From: a virus
Length of the DNA: 24,646 bases
Direction: 5' to 3' (one strand)
Virus record (IMG/VR): IMGVR_UViG_3300034012_003365
Span: 1 to 24,646 of that record
Every line of letters begins with the position of its first letter. Position 1 is the stretch's first letter. Below, in pieces: positions 15,004 through 20,165 of this stretch. Both the position numbers and the translations under genes were made by a program. The notes under the pieces are model-generated. The model was not told where the DNA came from. It ran no database searches and was given only the letters and a program-made list of their open reading frames with translations.

Positions 15004-15557
15004 GCGCCGACACCGCTTCACGCACGATCACCGCCGAAATCGAAGCCGTCATGGGCGACGTGGTGGGCTACGACGGCGCCGCGATCACGGGCCTCGGCCC
15101 TGACGGCGCGACCTCCGTGTCGCTCTCCTACGCGATCGGTCGCCGCACGCAGGTGGTCGCCGACACGCCCCCGCGCGTCGTGTGGGTGCTCGGCAGCGGC
15201 ACGGGCGCGGCCGCAGTCAAGACCGCCTTTCCCGCGGGTCGTCGCTCGCTCCTCACCCGCCAGCCGACGCTGCGCGCGGTGTGCTGGGGCCGCGACCTCG
15301 ACGCCGCCTCCGACCTCGCGACCGCCGTCCTCGCCGCCATGCAGCGCCGCTACGGCGGGCGCATCCCCTTCCTCGGCGAGGACTGGAACGACGACGCCGC
15401 CGTGACCGACTACGGCGAGGCCGTCGTGCTGTCCTGGCGCTGGTCGATCGCCGTCCTCGACCGCGCCCCGTCGCGCGTCGCTGTCACCTCCGCCACCCCT
15501 GACACCAGCGCGGCAACGACCGGAGACGGCGTGCTGCACCTCGGAGAGACCCCATGA
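15000..15557 (+). CDS. Probable tail terminator / neck protein
   Basis: A 185-aa protein from ATG 15000 (ATGA overlap). The order and size fit a gpU or Mu gp37-like terminator between the gpG-like gene and the sheath. The middle has an alternating strand-helix layout with an exposed loop RYGGRIPFLGEDWNDDA and a final strand VVLSWRWSIAVLDRAP. The last 30 residues are Thr/Ser/Ala-rich. Assigned by position and general form, not by a specific motif. Confidence 0.6.
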   Translation: MSADTASRTITAEIEAVMGDVVGYDGAAITGLGPDGATSVSLSYAIGRRTQVVADTPPRVVWVLGSGTGAAAVKTAFPAGRRSLLTRQPTLRAVCWGRDLDAASDLATAVLAAMQRRYGGRIPFLGEDWNDDAAVTDYGEAVVLSWRWSIAVLDRAPSRVAVTSATPDTSAATTGDGVLHLGETP

Positions 15558-17314
15558 CCCTCGGATCTGCCAGCCTCGAAATCCTCGATGGCGGCCTCGG
15601 CATCGGCCCCAACCTCGACCGCCCCATCGCGGTCATCGGGTGCAGCTCGTCTGGCACCGTCGCGTCAGCCGTCGAAGTGTCGACGCCCGAGGACGTGCGC
15701 ACGACGTGGGGCCGCGGCCCCCTCGTGCAGGGCCTCGCCCACATCCTCAAGCACGCGGGCGGCCCCGTGATCGGCGTGCGCGCGACGAGCACCACCGCGG
15801 GCGTCCTCGGCGGCGTCGCGCAGGAGGGCGGCGGCTCGTCGAGCGCGGGTTCCTTCGCTGCGGTGTCCGGCACCTCCACGGCGATCCCCGCGCTCACGGG
15901 GACGCCCGACCAGCCCTACGCGGTGCGGGTGAAGGTCACCACCGCGGCGAGCAACATCGCGGGCAACCCCAAGGTGCAGGTCAGCATGGACGGTGGCGCG
16001 ACCTGGCTCTTGGACGACGCCATCGACGTGAGCGCGACGCCGCAGTCGATCGGGTCGACGGGCCTGTCGCTGGCCTGGACCGACGGGACCTTCGTTCTCA
16101 CCGACTACTGGCTCTCCGTCGGCGCCAACTGCCCGACGAGTGCCGACGCCACCGGCAGCACGGTGGTGACCGCCTCGGGCACGCCCGTGGACGCCTTCGA
16201 CTTCCGCGCGAAGATCGTCCGCGCCGCCGCCACCCCCGCCGCCGGCGCCGCCATCAAGGTCTCCCTCGACGGGGGCCGCACCTACGGCGAGGAGGTGTCG
16301 ATCGTGTCGGGCTCCTACGAGGTGCCGAACACGGGCGTCACCTTCGCCTTCTCGGCCGCCTCGTGCGTCGTCGGCGACATCTACCGGCTCCGCACCGCGG
16401 CCCCCACGTGGAACACCTCGGGCCTCGACGCCGCCCTCGACGCGCTCGCCGCGAGCGGCCGGGACTTCGAGTTCGTGATGATCGAGGGCGCCGTCGACCG
16501 CACGAGCATCGCCACGGTGAAGACCTGGGTGACGGAGCGGGAGACCGCGGGCGCGTACACCTTCGCCCTCTGCGAGGCGCGCGGGCAGTCGACCGGCGAG
16601 ACCGCCGCGGCCTGGGCGACGAGCATCACGGGCGCGGACCCGGGCTTCCAGGGCTACGACTTCGAGAACTGCGGCTTCGTCTTCGCCGGGGAGGCCCTCG
16701 TCGTCAGCGCGGTGGACAACAGCGCGCAGCGCCGCACGGGGCTCCGCGTCGCCGCCGCTCGGCTGCTCACGTCTCGGCTGCACGAGAGCCCGCTGAAGGT
16801 GAAGAACGGCCCGGTCACGGGTCTCTACCCCGACGGCGACGCGTCGAGCGTCTTCCACGACGGGCGGACGTACACGTCGCTCGACTCCGCGCGCTTCATG
16901 TGCTTCCAGACGGTGCAGGGCCGCCCGCGCGGGGAGTACTTCATCACCGCGCGCACGATGGCCTCGGCCACGTCGGACTTCAGCGAGATCCAGCGCATCC
17001 GCGTGATGTGCGCCGCGGCGCGGGCCGCTCTCCCGGCCATCGCCCTCTACGTCGGCGACGATGTGGAGACGAAGACGAACGGCACCGGGCGCATCACCGA
17101 GGCCGCCGCGCAGGCGATCGAGCAGCAGGTGGCCGCGGCCGTCGCGCAGGCCGTGAAGGTGGCGCCGAACGAGCACGTCACGGCGGTCGCCGCGCTCTGC
17201 AACCGCACCGACAACATCCTCTCGACGGGCATCCTGCGCGTGGCGGTGTCCATCGTCCCGCGCGGCACCGTCAACACCGTCACCGCCACCATCGGCTACC
17301 GCCTCGCGGCGTGA
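15554..17314 (+). CDS. Contractile tail sheath protein with a duplicated insert domain
   Basis: A 586-aa protein from ATG 15554 (ATGA overlap). The first 85 residues (PIAVIGCSSSGTVASAV, then LVQGLAHILKHAGGPVIGVR) and the region after about 285 carry the sheath core. The C-terminus (about 485-586) has AALPAIALYVGDDVE and ends in strands VAVSIVPRGTVNTVTATIGY, as in DUF2586-type sheaths. Two related blocks lie between: residues about 115-195 and 208-286, sharing GTP...VKV...VSMDGGATW and GTP...AKI...VSLDGGRTY. They look like a tandem duplication exposed on the tail surface. The sheath shows the virion is a myovirus. Confidence 0.85.
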   Translation: MTLGSASLEILDGGLGIGPNLDRPIAVIGCSSSGTVASAVEVSTPEDVRTTWGRGPLVQGLAHILKHAGGPVIGVRATSTTAGVLGGVAQEGGGSSSAGSFAAVSGTSTAIPALTGTPDQPYAVRVKVTTAASNIAGNPKVQVSMDGGATWLLDDAIDVSATPQSIGSTGLSLAWTDGTFVLTDYWLSVGANCPTSADATGSTVVTASGTPVDAFDFRAKIVRAAATPAAGAAIKVSLDGGRTYGEEVSIVSGSYEVPNTGVTFAFSAASCVVGDIYRLRTAAPTWNTSGLDAALDALAASGRDFEFVMIEGAVDRTSIATVKTWVTERETAGAYTFALCEARGQSTGETAAAWATSITGADPGFQGYDFENCGFVFAGEALVVSAVDNSAQRRTGLRVAAARLLTSRLHESPLKVKNGPVTGLYPDGDASSVFHDGRTYTSLDSARFMCFQTVQGRPRGEYFITARTMASATSDFSEIQRIRVMCAAARAALPAIALYVGDDVETKTNGTGRITEAAAQAIEQQVAAAVAQAVKVAPNEHVTAVAALCNRTDNILSTGILRVAVSIVPRGTVNTVTATIGYRLAA

Positions 17315-17325
17315 AGGGCTGACCC

Positions 17326-17754
17326 ATGAACAGCAACGGACACGAGCACTCCTGGTCGGGATACCGCCTGGAGATCAACGGCGAGAAGATCACCGACATC
17401 AAGGGCGCGAAGTACGCCGAAGAGGTCGAGGGGAGCGACCCCGTCTACGGCGCGTCGCGCGTGCCCCGCGGGCGTGTGCCGGGGCGCTACAAGCCCGGCG
17501 ACTCCTCCATCACCTTCTACCGCAGCGGGTGGGCCGCCTTCCTGGCCACCGCGGGGACGAACTACTCCCGCAAGCGCTTCACCCTCGTGCACCAGTGGGA
17601 CGAGGACGGCGACGTTCACACCGCGAAGCTGGAGGACTGCCGCGTCATCGGCAGCGACCACAGCGCCGAGGAGGGCACCGACGCGAGCGAGGTGGAGGTG
17701 AAGTTCACCTTCCTGCGGTGCTTCCAGGACGGCACGGAGCTCGTCGCGTCGTGA
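17326..17754 (+). CDS. Tail tube protein
   Basis: A 142-aa protein from ATG 17326, with GAAGGG (17312-17317) upstream. It follows the sheath directly, the usual order in contractile tails. It is strand-rich (SGYRLEINGEKITDIKGAKY, DSSITFYRSGWAAFL, ASEVEVKFTFLRC) with the size of a tube monomer. The tube carries DNA inside the sheath. Its TGA overlaps the GTG of the chaperone gene at 17751. Confidence 0.8.
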   Translation: MNSNGHEHSWSGYRLEINGEKITDIKGAKYAEEVEGSDPVYGASRVPRGRVPGRYKPGDSSITFYRSGWAAFLATAGTNYSRKRFTLVHQWDEDGDVHTAKLEDCRVIGSDHSAEEGTDASEVEVKFTFLRCFQDGTELVAS

Positions 17755-18176
17755 GCGAGCCCATCAACCTCGACGCCCTGCGTGCGCAGGCCGAATCCAT
17801 CCACGGCGATCGGATCGCCGTCCTCGAGCTCGGGGGCCGTGTCTGGTGCGTGGCGGTGCCCCGGTCCGGCTTCCGGGGCCTGTGGCAGCGCTTCAAGACG
17901 CAGCAGAACAGCCCCGACCCCACCACGAAGGCCGACGCGGCCGTGCAGCTCGCGCGGGCGATGCTCGTCCCGGTGGCCGCGCCCTCGACCGACGACGCGC
18001 GCAAGGCCCTGCGCGCCGACTTCGACGCGATGGGCGAGGAGTTCCCGGCGCTCCTCGATGTGCTCGGCGAGACCGCGGAGGCGCTCGCCCTCGGCCCTTT
18101 GCCGATTCGCGCCGCCTCGCCGCCGAGCTCTTCGTCGGCGGACGGCGCGACCCCGACGTCGCCGCCGACTGCCTGA
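17751..18176 (+). CDS. Tail assembly chaperone, short (unshifted) form
   Basis: A 141-aa protein from GTG 17751 (GTGA overlap). The first 117 residues hold VWCVAVPRSGFRGLWQRFKT and a helical part to ALALG. After the slippery site the frame-0 tail is low-complexity (AASPPSSSSADGATPTSPPT), as expected for a rarely conserved end after a frameshift site. It should bind the tape measure during tail assembly, like lambda gpG or P2 gpE. Confidence 0.8.
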   Translation: MSEPINLDALRAQAESIHGDRIAVLELGGRVWCVAVPRSGFRGLWQRFKTQQNSPDPTTKADAAVQLARAMLVPVAAPSTDDARKALRADFDAMGEEFPALLDVLGETAEALALGPLPIRAASPPSSSSADGATPTSPPTA

Positions 18177-18325
18177 TGGCGCTGGCGGGCGCGGACCACG
18201 GCGACCCCGAGGCCCGCGCCGGCGCCTACCAGATCGTGGAGTTCCTCGCGGGCTTCCGCGGGCTGCTCAAGTCCCTGAGCTCGAAGCCTTCCGCCTCGAC
18301 CCCCAACCGCAAACGCCGTGGCTGA
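17751..18325 (+). CDS. Tail assembly chaperone, -1 frameshift fusion (G-T / E-E' type)
   Basis: Reading frame 0 to codon TTG (18099-18101) and then slipping back one base gives a 191-aa fusion: 117 shared residues plus 74 in the -1 frame (ADSRRLAAELFVGGRRDPDV then LMALAGADHGDPEARAGAYQ and an Arg/Lys tail). The -1 frame has no own start with a ribosome site and reads as a real protein up to the tape measure start (8-bp overlap at 18318). Lambda G/GT and P2 E/E' use the same design between tube and tape measure. Confidence 0.8.
18095..18101 (+). promoter_or_regulatory. -1 ribosomal frameshift site CCCTTTG
   Basis: The heptamer C CCT TTG is an X XXY YYZ slippery site in frame with the chaperone gene. 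After the slip, CCC and TTT are re-read by the same tRNAs. It lies exactly where the -1 reading frame becomes protein-like and frame 0 becomes low-complexity. Confidence 0.85.
18107..18150 (+). promoter_or_regulatory. Two-stem hairpin stimulating the frameshift
   Basis: An outer stem pairs TCGCGCCG (18107-18114) with CGGCGCGA (18143-18150), 8 perfect base pairs. An inner stem pairs CCGCCGA (18120-18126) with TCGGCGG (18135-18141), 7 perfect pairs, with an 8-nt loop. The outer stem begins 5 nt after the slippery heptamer, a usual spacing for -1 frameshift stimulators. Confidence 0.7.
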
Positions 18326-20165
18326 CGAAACCCTCCGCTGGCGCCTCCTCCTCCGGGACGGCGTGTCACCCGGCGCCAAGCGCGCGCGGGACTCTCTGCG
18401 TGCGTACCGCGCCGAGCTCACCCGCCTCCAGCGGACGGCGGCGCGGGATGCGGCGCGGGCTCAGCGGGACGCCGCGCGTCAGGCCGCGGCCAACGCCCGG
18501 CGCGCGCAGGAGAACACCCGGCTCCTGGCGCAGGGCACCCGCACGGGCCTGGGGCTCCTCGGGGGCCTCGCGGTCGGCGCAGCGTCGGCGCTCGCCGGGG
18601 TCGTCGGCTCGTTCGCGGAGGTGGGCGCCGCCGCGGCGCGCAGCGTCGTGGAGATCGCTTCGTTCCGGGAGTCGTCGCTCACGGCGCTCGAGGCGGTGCT
18701 CGGCTCGTCGCAGGCAGCGGGGCGGCAGTTCCGCAACGCCATCACCATCGCGAATCAGACCCCGCTCGACACGCAGGACATCATCCAGCAGACGGCGGGG
18801 TTCGCCATCGCAGGCTTCGCCGAGCGTGAGATTCAGCCGCTCATCGCGGCCTCCGCCGACCTCGGCGCGGCCTTCGGCCAGCGGTCGCAAGAGGGGTTCA
18901 GCTTCGCCCTCTCGCAGATCCGCGCCGCGGGGCAACTTCAGGGGCAGGAGCTCCTTCAGCTCCAGAACGCCAACGTCTCCCGCGAGGCGGTGTTGGCGAG
19001 CATCGCCCGGCAGATGGGCCTCGGCCAGGGCGAGGCGGGCAACCGGGCCGCGCTCGAAGCGATCCGACAGCGGCGGGTCAACAGCAGCGTCGGCATCCAG
19101 GCCGCGCTTGATGCGGTGCAGACGCGGCTCGACCGCGGCCGGGCGCTGGGCAGCTTCGCCCGCGACCAGGCCAACACCCTCACGGGCGCGCTCTCGAACG
19201 CCCGCAACGCGATCTTCAACCTCATCGTGGGGATGGACCTGGGGAACCTCCCAGGCATCCGCACCTTCAAGGACACGTTGATCGCGGTGACGAACGCACT
19301 CATTGCCGGGGGGCCCGCGGCCGGGCAACTCCAGGGCGCCATCGCGGGCGCCGCCAACGCGGCGGGGGGCCTCTTCGGGCGGCTGTTCAGCGTGCAGAAC
19401 ATCGTCGGTGCCTTCGGGCTCGTCGGTCGCGCGGTGCAGTCCATCGCCCGCTTTGCGACCGCGGCGTGGCCCGTGGTGCGGGCCTTCGTCTCGGCCCTCG
19501 GGCCGGGCTTCATGGCGGGCATCGCTCCCCTGCGCGGCCTCTTCGGGTCGCTGCTCTCGGGCGGGCCGCCCTCGGCGCGGACGCTGGCGCTCATCGCAAC
19601 GGCGGCGCGTGGCATCGGCTCGGCGCTGGGCTTCGCGGCGGGCGCGGTCGTGACCTTCACGGCCGGCATGGGCCTCGTCGTCGGCACCATCACCGCCCTG
19701 TGGGGCACCATCGGCGGCCTCGTCGCGGCGGGCATCACCAGCGTGCGGGCGATGTTCACGTCGGTCGGCACCAACATCGTCGACGGCATCATCGCGGGCA
19801 TCACGGGTGGCGTGGGGCGCCTCGGCGCAGCCGTCTCGGGCCTCGGCACCAGCGCGGTGCAGTCGGCGCGCGCGGCCCTCGGGATCGCCTCCCCTTCGCG
19901 CGTCTTCGCTGACGTCATCGGCCGCCAGATCCCAGCCGGCATCGAGCTCGGCATCGCCCGTGGCAGCGGCCCCCTCGACGCGACCGTCGCGGGCATCGTC
20001 GACCCCCGCCCTCCGCGCGGCGGGCTCGGCGGTGGCGCGAGCATCTCCGTGCAGATCATCGTGCAGCGCGGCGCGGGCGACGAGGACACGGCGCGCACCA
20101 TCGGCGACCACCTTGAGGAGCGCCTCGTCGACATCTTCGGCGGCATGGCGGAGCAGCTCGGTTGA
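18318..20165 (+). CDS. Tail tape measure protein
   Basis: A 615-aa protein from GTG 18318, overlapping the chaperone -1 frame by 8 bp. It has a charged coiled-coil N-terminus (about 20-70, RARDSLRAYRAELTRLQR), a Gly/Ala hydrophobic segment (75-100), a helical middle, several hydrophobic segments (about 330-500) and the common C-terminal motif ALGIASPSRVFADVIGRQIP (about 520-540). With the rule of roughly 1.5 Angstrom per residue the tail would be about 90 nm long. It sets tail length and helps DNA entry. Confidence 0.92.
   Translation: MADETLRWRLLLRDGVSPGAKRARDSLRAYRAELTRLQRTAARDAARAQRDAARQAAANARRAQENTRLLAQGTRTGLGLLGGLAVGAASALAGVVGSFAEVGAAAARSVVEIASFRESSLTALEAVLGSSQAAGRQFRNAITIANQTPLDTQDIIQQTAGFAIAGFAEREIQPLIAASADLGAAFGQRSQEGFSFALSQIRAAGQLQGQELLQLQNANVSREAVLASIARQMGLGQGEAGNRAALEAIRQRRVNSSVGIQAALDAVQTRLDRGRALGSFARDQANTLTGALSNARNAIFNLIVGMDLGNLPGIRTFKDTLIAVTNALIAGGPAAGQLQGAIAGAANAAGGLFGRLFSVQNIVGAFGLVGRAVQSIARFATAAWPVVRAFVSALGPGFMAGIAPLRGLFGSLLSGGPPSARTLALIATAARGIGSALGFAAGAVVTFTAGMGLVVGTITALWGTIGGLVAAGITSVRAMFTSVGTNIVDGIIAGITGGVGRLGAAVSGLGTSAVQSARAALGIASPSRVFADVIGRQIPAGIELGIARGSGPLDATVAGIVDPRPPRGGLGGGASISVQIIVQRGAGDEDTARTIGDHLEERLVDIFGGMAEQLG

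Follow-up and report, generated by a model that had tools for sequence, protein, structure and literature searches.

CCCTTTG as the probable -1 frameshift site of a tail chaperone gene in a contractile-tailed phage

Low-level frameshifting between G and T is widely conserved in long-tailed phages, and the T domain binds the tube subunit (PMC5009743; this and the other PMC-numbered sources are cited from excerpts). PRFect was trained mainly on frameshifts in tail chaperone genes (PMC10885494), and a review of archaeal recoding gives Z of the usual heptamer as 'any base but G' (PMC8211752). The lambda gpG/gpGT gene lies between those of the tube and the tape measure protein, yields a short chaperone and a rarer -1 fusion, and has its slip site close to where the first ORF ends (PMC5009743); the gene analyzed in this study shares this placement and very probably the other two features. 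Unlike lambda, the present gene belongs to a contractile tail with a DUF2586-type sheath, carries the heptamer CCCTTTG and has a short extension of 74 codons. The tail of phage Mu is also contractile. A frameshift in the tail chaperone gene is shared with Mu as well, which shifts -2 and not -1 (PMC5009743, PMC3498833). By our analysis, the gene is an ordinary, well-supported candidate for frameshifting of the lambda G/GT type, with a less common heptamer.

The window, which here means the whole stretch of 24,646 bases taken from an IMG/VR virus record, has a G+C content of 73.7% and comes from a phage with a contractile tail and a sheath of the DUF2586 type. The tail sheath gene (15554-17314; PF10758, E 9.6e-36; phrog_907, E 2e-38) is followed by the tail tube protein gene (17326-17754, plus strand; phrog_4579 tail protein, E 6.8e-6), and the tube gene comes after the sheath also in the relatives MMP7 and MMP17. 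The sheath of the window has about 100 additional residues (about residues 92-205) that are missing from MMP7, Mx4, Riverbug and Mushuvirus. On the same strand, the frame-0 tail assembly chaperone of 141 aa (17751-18176) begins at a GTG overlapping the tube gene stop, and the tape measure protein gene (18318-20165, plus strand; phrog_1272, E 7.6e-23) also starts with GTG. The chaperone gene is thus placed between tube and tape measure genes, as in the lambda G/GT type. Programmed -1 frameshifting at CCCTTTG very probably yields two tail chaperone forms from positions 17751-18325. The basis was obtained by computation and consists of the heptamer, its phase, its conservation, the coding in both frames and the fold of the chaperone part.

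The frame-0 ORF runs from GTG at 17751 to TGA at 18174-18176, and the slippery heptamer C CCT TTG is located in phase within it at 18095-18101 on the plus strand. The in-phase CCCTTTG claimed for the chaperone gene in an earlier note was therefore found, and it is the only XXXYYYZ heptamer between 17751 and 18330. A -1 slip at this site gives a product ending at 18325, which reproduces both the 191-aa fusion and the end 8 bp inside the tape measure gene (GTG at 18318) that the note had described. In-phase XXXYYYZ heptamers occur at four of the 4772 codons in the other genes of the window, all four composed of G and C only, and the chance of one such heptamer among the 15 in-phase junction positions is about 0.0125. 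Re-pairing from UUG to UUU in the A site is weak in the third position, which counts against slippage here. The heptamer of phage P2 is TTTTTTG.

Codon usage changes frame at the heptamer. The log-likelihood per codon favors frame 0 over the -1 frame before the heptamer (-3.38 vs -4.53), and favors the -1 frame over frame 0 both in the overlap (-3.31 vs -3.74) and after it (-3.52 vs -4.45), which agrees with the proposed passage of coding from frame 0 to -1 at the site. The -1 frame of the window is already open from 17702, so the open frame by itself does not pin the slip site, and the same frame might be reached by a +2 shift or by a shift elsewhere in the overlap. We give such a route hardly any credence, because CCCTTTG is without an XXXYYYZ competitor in the gene, is conserved amid diverged flanking residues and falls between the modelled domains.

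The frame-0 residues 1-116, up to the heptamer, were modelled by AlphaFold2 with a mean pLDDT of 95.5. This part shares its fold over 85-88 residues with three phage-type proteins, which head the list of solved matches: 3fgx (RBSTP2171; Z 9.7, 2.7 A, 88 residues), YqbN 3klu (Z 5.7, 4.3 A, 88 residues) and the HK97 tail assembly chaperone 2ob9 (Z 5.1, 3.5 A, 85 residues), where a Z under 8 taken alone may reflect a common arrangement. The identity to each of the three is 17% or less. 3fgx and YqbN are relatives of tail chaperones. Foldseek alone returned no match for the chaperone model at E 0.001 or better; the profile of the chaperone family matches 3fgx by sequence with E 6.2e-17. When this profile was built without the window, the frame-0 part of the window ranked first of 380 ORFs, but with an E of 0.28, so that this profile by itself is weak evidence; scores from profiles that contain the window were kept out of the argument. 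Pfam DUF6848 is matched by 32 of the 55 chaperones in the alignment, and phrog_20303 'minor tail protein' by 23 of the 55. The frame-0 part of the window alone matches no Pfam or PHROG family, and the window protein is not among the matches of these two (0 families), so that its probable kinship to their members rests on bridging relatives and the modelled fold. The family profile and the fold matches to solved tail chaperones bear out the tail chaperone identity given in the earlier note.

The -1 frame extension (18101-18325, plus strand) comprises 74 codons and a stop, and is delineated by profile, alignment and AlphaFold2 model as a helical bundle. A profile was made from the relatives only, with the window left out, and searched against the 380 six-frame ORFs of the window; the -1 ORF was ranked first with E 3.9e-7, and the next ORF had 0.12. 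When 32 extensions are aligned, A22, L25, G41 and A42 (numbering of the window extension) are among the best conserved positions. The predicted structure has a pLDDT of 89.4, with blocks of 93-98 covering residues 1-60, and forms helices at residues 2-16, 18-29 and 36-60; the heptamer falls between the two modelled domains. Neither Pfam nor PHROG yielded a convincing model for the extension-domain alignment, and the -1 half of the window gene alone matches no family in either collection. Among 32 chains compared, no solved match of the extension model exceeds Z 4.9, which shows no kinship. Judged from profile and model, the predicted extension is a real helical domain.

Searches with single proteins for close relatives of the window gave no match, and relatives were reached only by sheath alignments, through MMP7/MMP17 (Meiothermus), Mx4 (Myxococcus), Riverbug (Thermus) and Mushuvirus, and then through IMG/VR and genome loci. 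The nearest ones found are L064-L066, with sheaths 49% identical to that of the window, and L067 (51%). The tape measure proteins of L066 and L067 are 55% and 61% identical to that of the window, and the chaperone parts 49-51% (L064/L066) and 54-55% (L067). The heptamer is found in phase at the same position, as GGC CCT TTG, in L064-L066 and L067, and a homologous -1 extension follows. The amino acids on either side of CCCTTTG have diverged among the relatives. Since the chaperone parts are only 49-55% identical, the heptamer has been retained despite considerable divergence. L065 and L066 are identical to L064 at the junction, and scans with tape measure and chaperone alignments gave the same near relatives, so this conservation amounts to three distinct sequences, namely the window, L064 and L067. 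The earlier note had proposed to look for the heptamer in relatives; its in-phase presence there, the homologous extension and the conserved frame switch all speak for the -1 frameshift reading.

A frame change inside a conserved two-domain protein of a single contig does resemble an indel, and a sequencing error or a disabling indel might have split one gene. This explanation has next to no probability, as the identical frame change occurs at the same heptamer in two further distinct sequences and the extension is out of frame at every one of the 51 junctions with a detected domain. The pN/pS ratios were also compared between frames. For the window and L067, the same 24 codons downstream give 0.63 in the -1 frame vs 1.32 in frame 0 (0.36 for the -1 frame over 60 codons), and upstream the values are 0.72 for frame 0 and 0.93 for the -1 reading. 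The other two pairs agree with this downstream, with values of 0.78 and 0.59 for the -1 frame and 2.5 and 1.56 for frame 0. Upstream, the comparison of the window with L066 is unhelpful, since frame 0 (1.05) is not below the -1 reading (0.91).

The -1 part might instead be a separate gene of 49 aa, expressed by coupled reinitiation at the ATG at 18176-18178, which overlaps the frame-0 stop in the motif TGATG (18174-18178). Annotators of several relatives list the small ORF as a separate gene. However, this ATG reads ATC in both L067 and L064, and the frame-0 stop of L064 is located elsewhere. The ATG corresponds to residue 26 of the extension, past the conserved A22 and L25 and within helix 2 as modelled, and reinitiation there would cost about a third of the extension. 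Codon usage prefers the -1 frame already upstream of it, and the extensions of relatives lie in -1 or +1, in most cases with a slippery site ahead of the stop. A separately started -1 gene in related phages was named in the earlier note as the case against frameshifting; what we found is a start codon that is not conserved and would cut the bundle, and reinitiation is very unlikely compared with frameshifting at CCCTTTG.

A spacer of 5 nt (18102-18106, plus strand) separates the heptamer from a hairpin at 18107-18150 on the same strand, which is a candidate stimulator. The 5-nt spacer and the 8-bp outer stem described before were recovered, whereas the 7-bp inner stem is paired slightly differently in the RNAfold optimum of the same 44 nt (-28.8 kcal/mol; -27.6 kcal/mol for the 8+7-bp structure of the earlier note). 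Among 4711 control positions, overlapping and in frame, 0.085% fold as stably as the 44 nt beginning 5 nt past the heptamer. The 50 nt past the heptamer fold at -29.5 kcal/mol vs a control mean of -17.9, with 0.42% of the 4711 positions as stable. Over a longer stretch a dinucleotide shuffle test gives a z of -2 only, and a second downstream fold competes there; when 75 nt are folded, the outer stem has a probability of about 0.5, with the rival fold further downstream. Of the two nearest relatives, one has the hairpin and the other does not. L067 retains 16 of the 17 predicted pairs, two of them with compensatory changes on both sides, and one of these double changes (CGC/CGT and CGG/CGA) leaves the amino acids of the -1 frame unaltered on either side. 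L066 has 8 of the 17 pairs left, and the L064/L066 sequence folds at -15.9 kcal/mol. The hairpin therefore looks optional. A downstream hairpin was rejected as a family-wide rule, with the downstream 50 nt in the most stable 5% of their own locus at 12 of 62 sites (median rank 0.29). From these three counts, we regard the hairpin as a probable aid in the branch of the window and not as a feature of the family. Another possible, weak stimulator is a Shine-Dalgarno-like GGAGG at 18077-18081 (plus strand), 13 nt before the heptamer, which could act by analogy with the Shine-Dalgarno-type stimulator described for dnaX (PMC3711429). Near-matches in L067 and L066 fall on a conserved Glu codon, so the conservation of GGAGG is uninformative.

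Mx4 and Mushuvirus share with the window the gene order, a -1 frame open past the frame-0 stop and an in-phase heptamer before this stop. The heptamer itself differs, being A AAA AAA in Mx4 and A AAT TTG in Mushuvirus, and the extension of Mushuvirus is not matched by the extension profile. To survey the family, 108 sequences (107 loci and the window) were examined, and the tube gene was recognised in 99. Of these, 10 duplicates, 6 without a recognised chaperone in the stretch and 1 running off its contig were dropped, which left 82 distinct junctions including the window. The extension domain was recognised at 51 of the 82, in the -1 frame at 39, in +1 at 12 and in frame 0 at none. Within roughly 100 nt of its end, the frame-0 ORF has an in-phase XXXYYYZ at 34 of the 39 -1 junctions, at 26 of the 31 junctions that lack a recognised extension and at 2 of the 12 in the +1 group; these counts are upper bounds, since a few of the listed heptamers, such as CCCGGGG, are unlikely slip sites. 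A phase control with heptamers in other phases is confounded, because long A runs yield heptamers in two phases. Junctions without a full heptamer often have shorter runs, for example GTA AAA G or CGA AAA.

The commonest heptamer is AAAAAAA, with 25 occurrences. CCCTTTG is found in three sequences (window, L064 and L067), CCCTTTC in three (L041, L046 and L099), and CCCTTTT overlapping TTTTTTC in five without a recognised extension (L060, L089, L090, L091 and L096). CCCTTTT is also present in L008 and L009 of the +1 group, far from their junction. The earlier description of CCCTTTG as unusual holds in that it is uncommon, but not in that it is isolated, as eight more distant relatives carry CCCTTTC or CCCTTTT close to the junction and in phase. 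CCCUUUG/T has been predicted in West Nile virus (PMC3574045). The literature searched contains no report of CCCTTTG as a phage slip site, which is a weak indication given that Xu et al. 2004 lay outside its coverage. That paper is reportedly the main list of chaperone frameshift sites. The fusion might also arise by transcriptional slippage instead of ribosomal frameshifting, which is possible in principle where other members of the family have A runs. Slippage has been reported on long stretches of A or T (PMC3711429), and CCCTTTG has no run above three bases, which leaves this origin a vanishingly small probability for the window and favors ribosomal slippage at CCCTTTG.

Several junctions deserve separate description. 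L060, L089, L090, L091 and L096 read CCC TTT TTC, with CCCTTTT and TTTTTTC both in phase, and the junctions of L059, L086 and L095 have TTTTTTC only; L059 and L060 come from Treponema assemblies. Only short runs (A AAA G, CGA AAA, GAA AAA) are found in L020, L031, L044, L071, L072, L073, L105 and L107, and five of these eight have a recognised extension in -1. The -1 frame of L079 and L082 closes 2 and 10 codons past the chaperone stop, and their +1 frame is open for 49 and 70 codons; both are possible +1 cases outside the Thermus group. Two tandem chaperone domains are present within one ORF in L030 (4341-4940) and L056 (5941-6513).

MMP7 (Meiothermus) and Riverbug (Thermus) resemble the window in gene order and have a homologous extension, but it lies in +1 at UUU_C, resembling influenza PA-X (PMC3498833). 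At all 12 distinct junctions of this branch (L002, L005, L008, L009, L013, L016, L019, L021, L022, L024, L028 and L036) the extension is in +1 and an in-frame TTT is followed by C. Nine junctions read CGA or CGG TTT CTG, and three read GAT TTT CGG or CGC. The long ORFs of these loci encode Phe less often by TTT than by TTC (186 vs 369). In influenza PA-X, +1 slippage on UUU_C has been shown and a class of such sites predicted (PMC3498833). The junction sequences suggest a PA-X-like +1 site in the Thermus and Meiothermus phages. No such case was found among the titles and abstract openings of the papers that a literature search for Thermus phage frameshifting returned, and the UUU_C branch may be more novel than the -1 site of the window.

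The following mechanism is proposed for the window. Most ribosomes would stay in frame 0 and make the 141-aa product. In a minority, once C CCU UUG is reached and tRNA-Pro occupies the P site and tRNA-Leu the A site, both tRNAs would slip one base back to pair with CCC UUU; the hairpin, 5 nt further on, probably assists this step. Reading in -1 to 18325 would then give the 191-aa fusion, which carries the helical bundle at its C terminus. The analogy to lambda gpG/gpGT suggests that the tape measure protein is coated by the short form, with tube subunits recruited by the rarer fusion. We infer the slippage itself, its efficiency, the tRNAs, the role of the hairpin and the chaperone function.

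The window adds to a classic mechanism a well-supported case whose slip heptamer is conserved. Such fusions are split or overlooked by gene finders, and in the annotated relatives examined the extension is entered as a separate hypothetical protein or is absent; naming the extension domain would aid the annotation of many contractile phages. The candidate -1 sites of the family comprise AAAAAAA, GGGAAAA, AAATTTG, TTTTTTC and CCCTTTN, with +1 at UUU_C in the Thermus and Meiothermus phages, and we think it rather likely that one homologous chaperone family has repeatedly swapped both the direction of recoding and the slip site. The occurrence of -1 and +1 solutions in one family makes the change of direction testable. 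If this is true, the +1 branch would represent the UUU_C class among bacterial viruses, and the family would be a natural series in which the direction of frameshifting changes while the protein stays constant.
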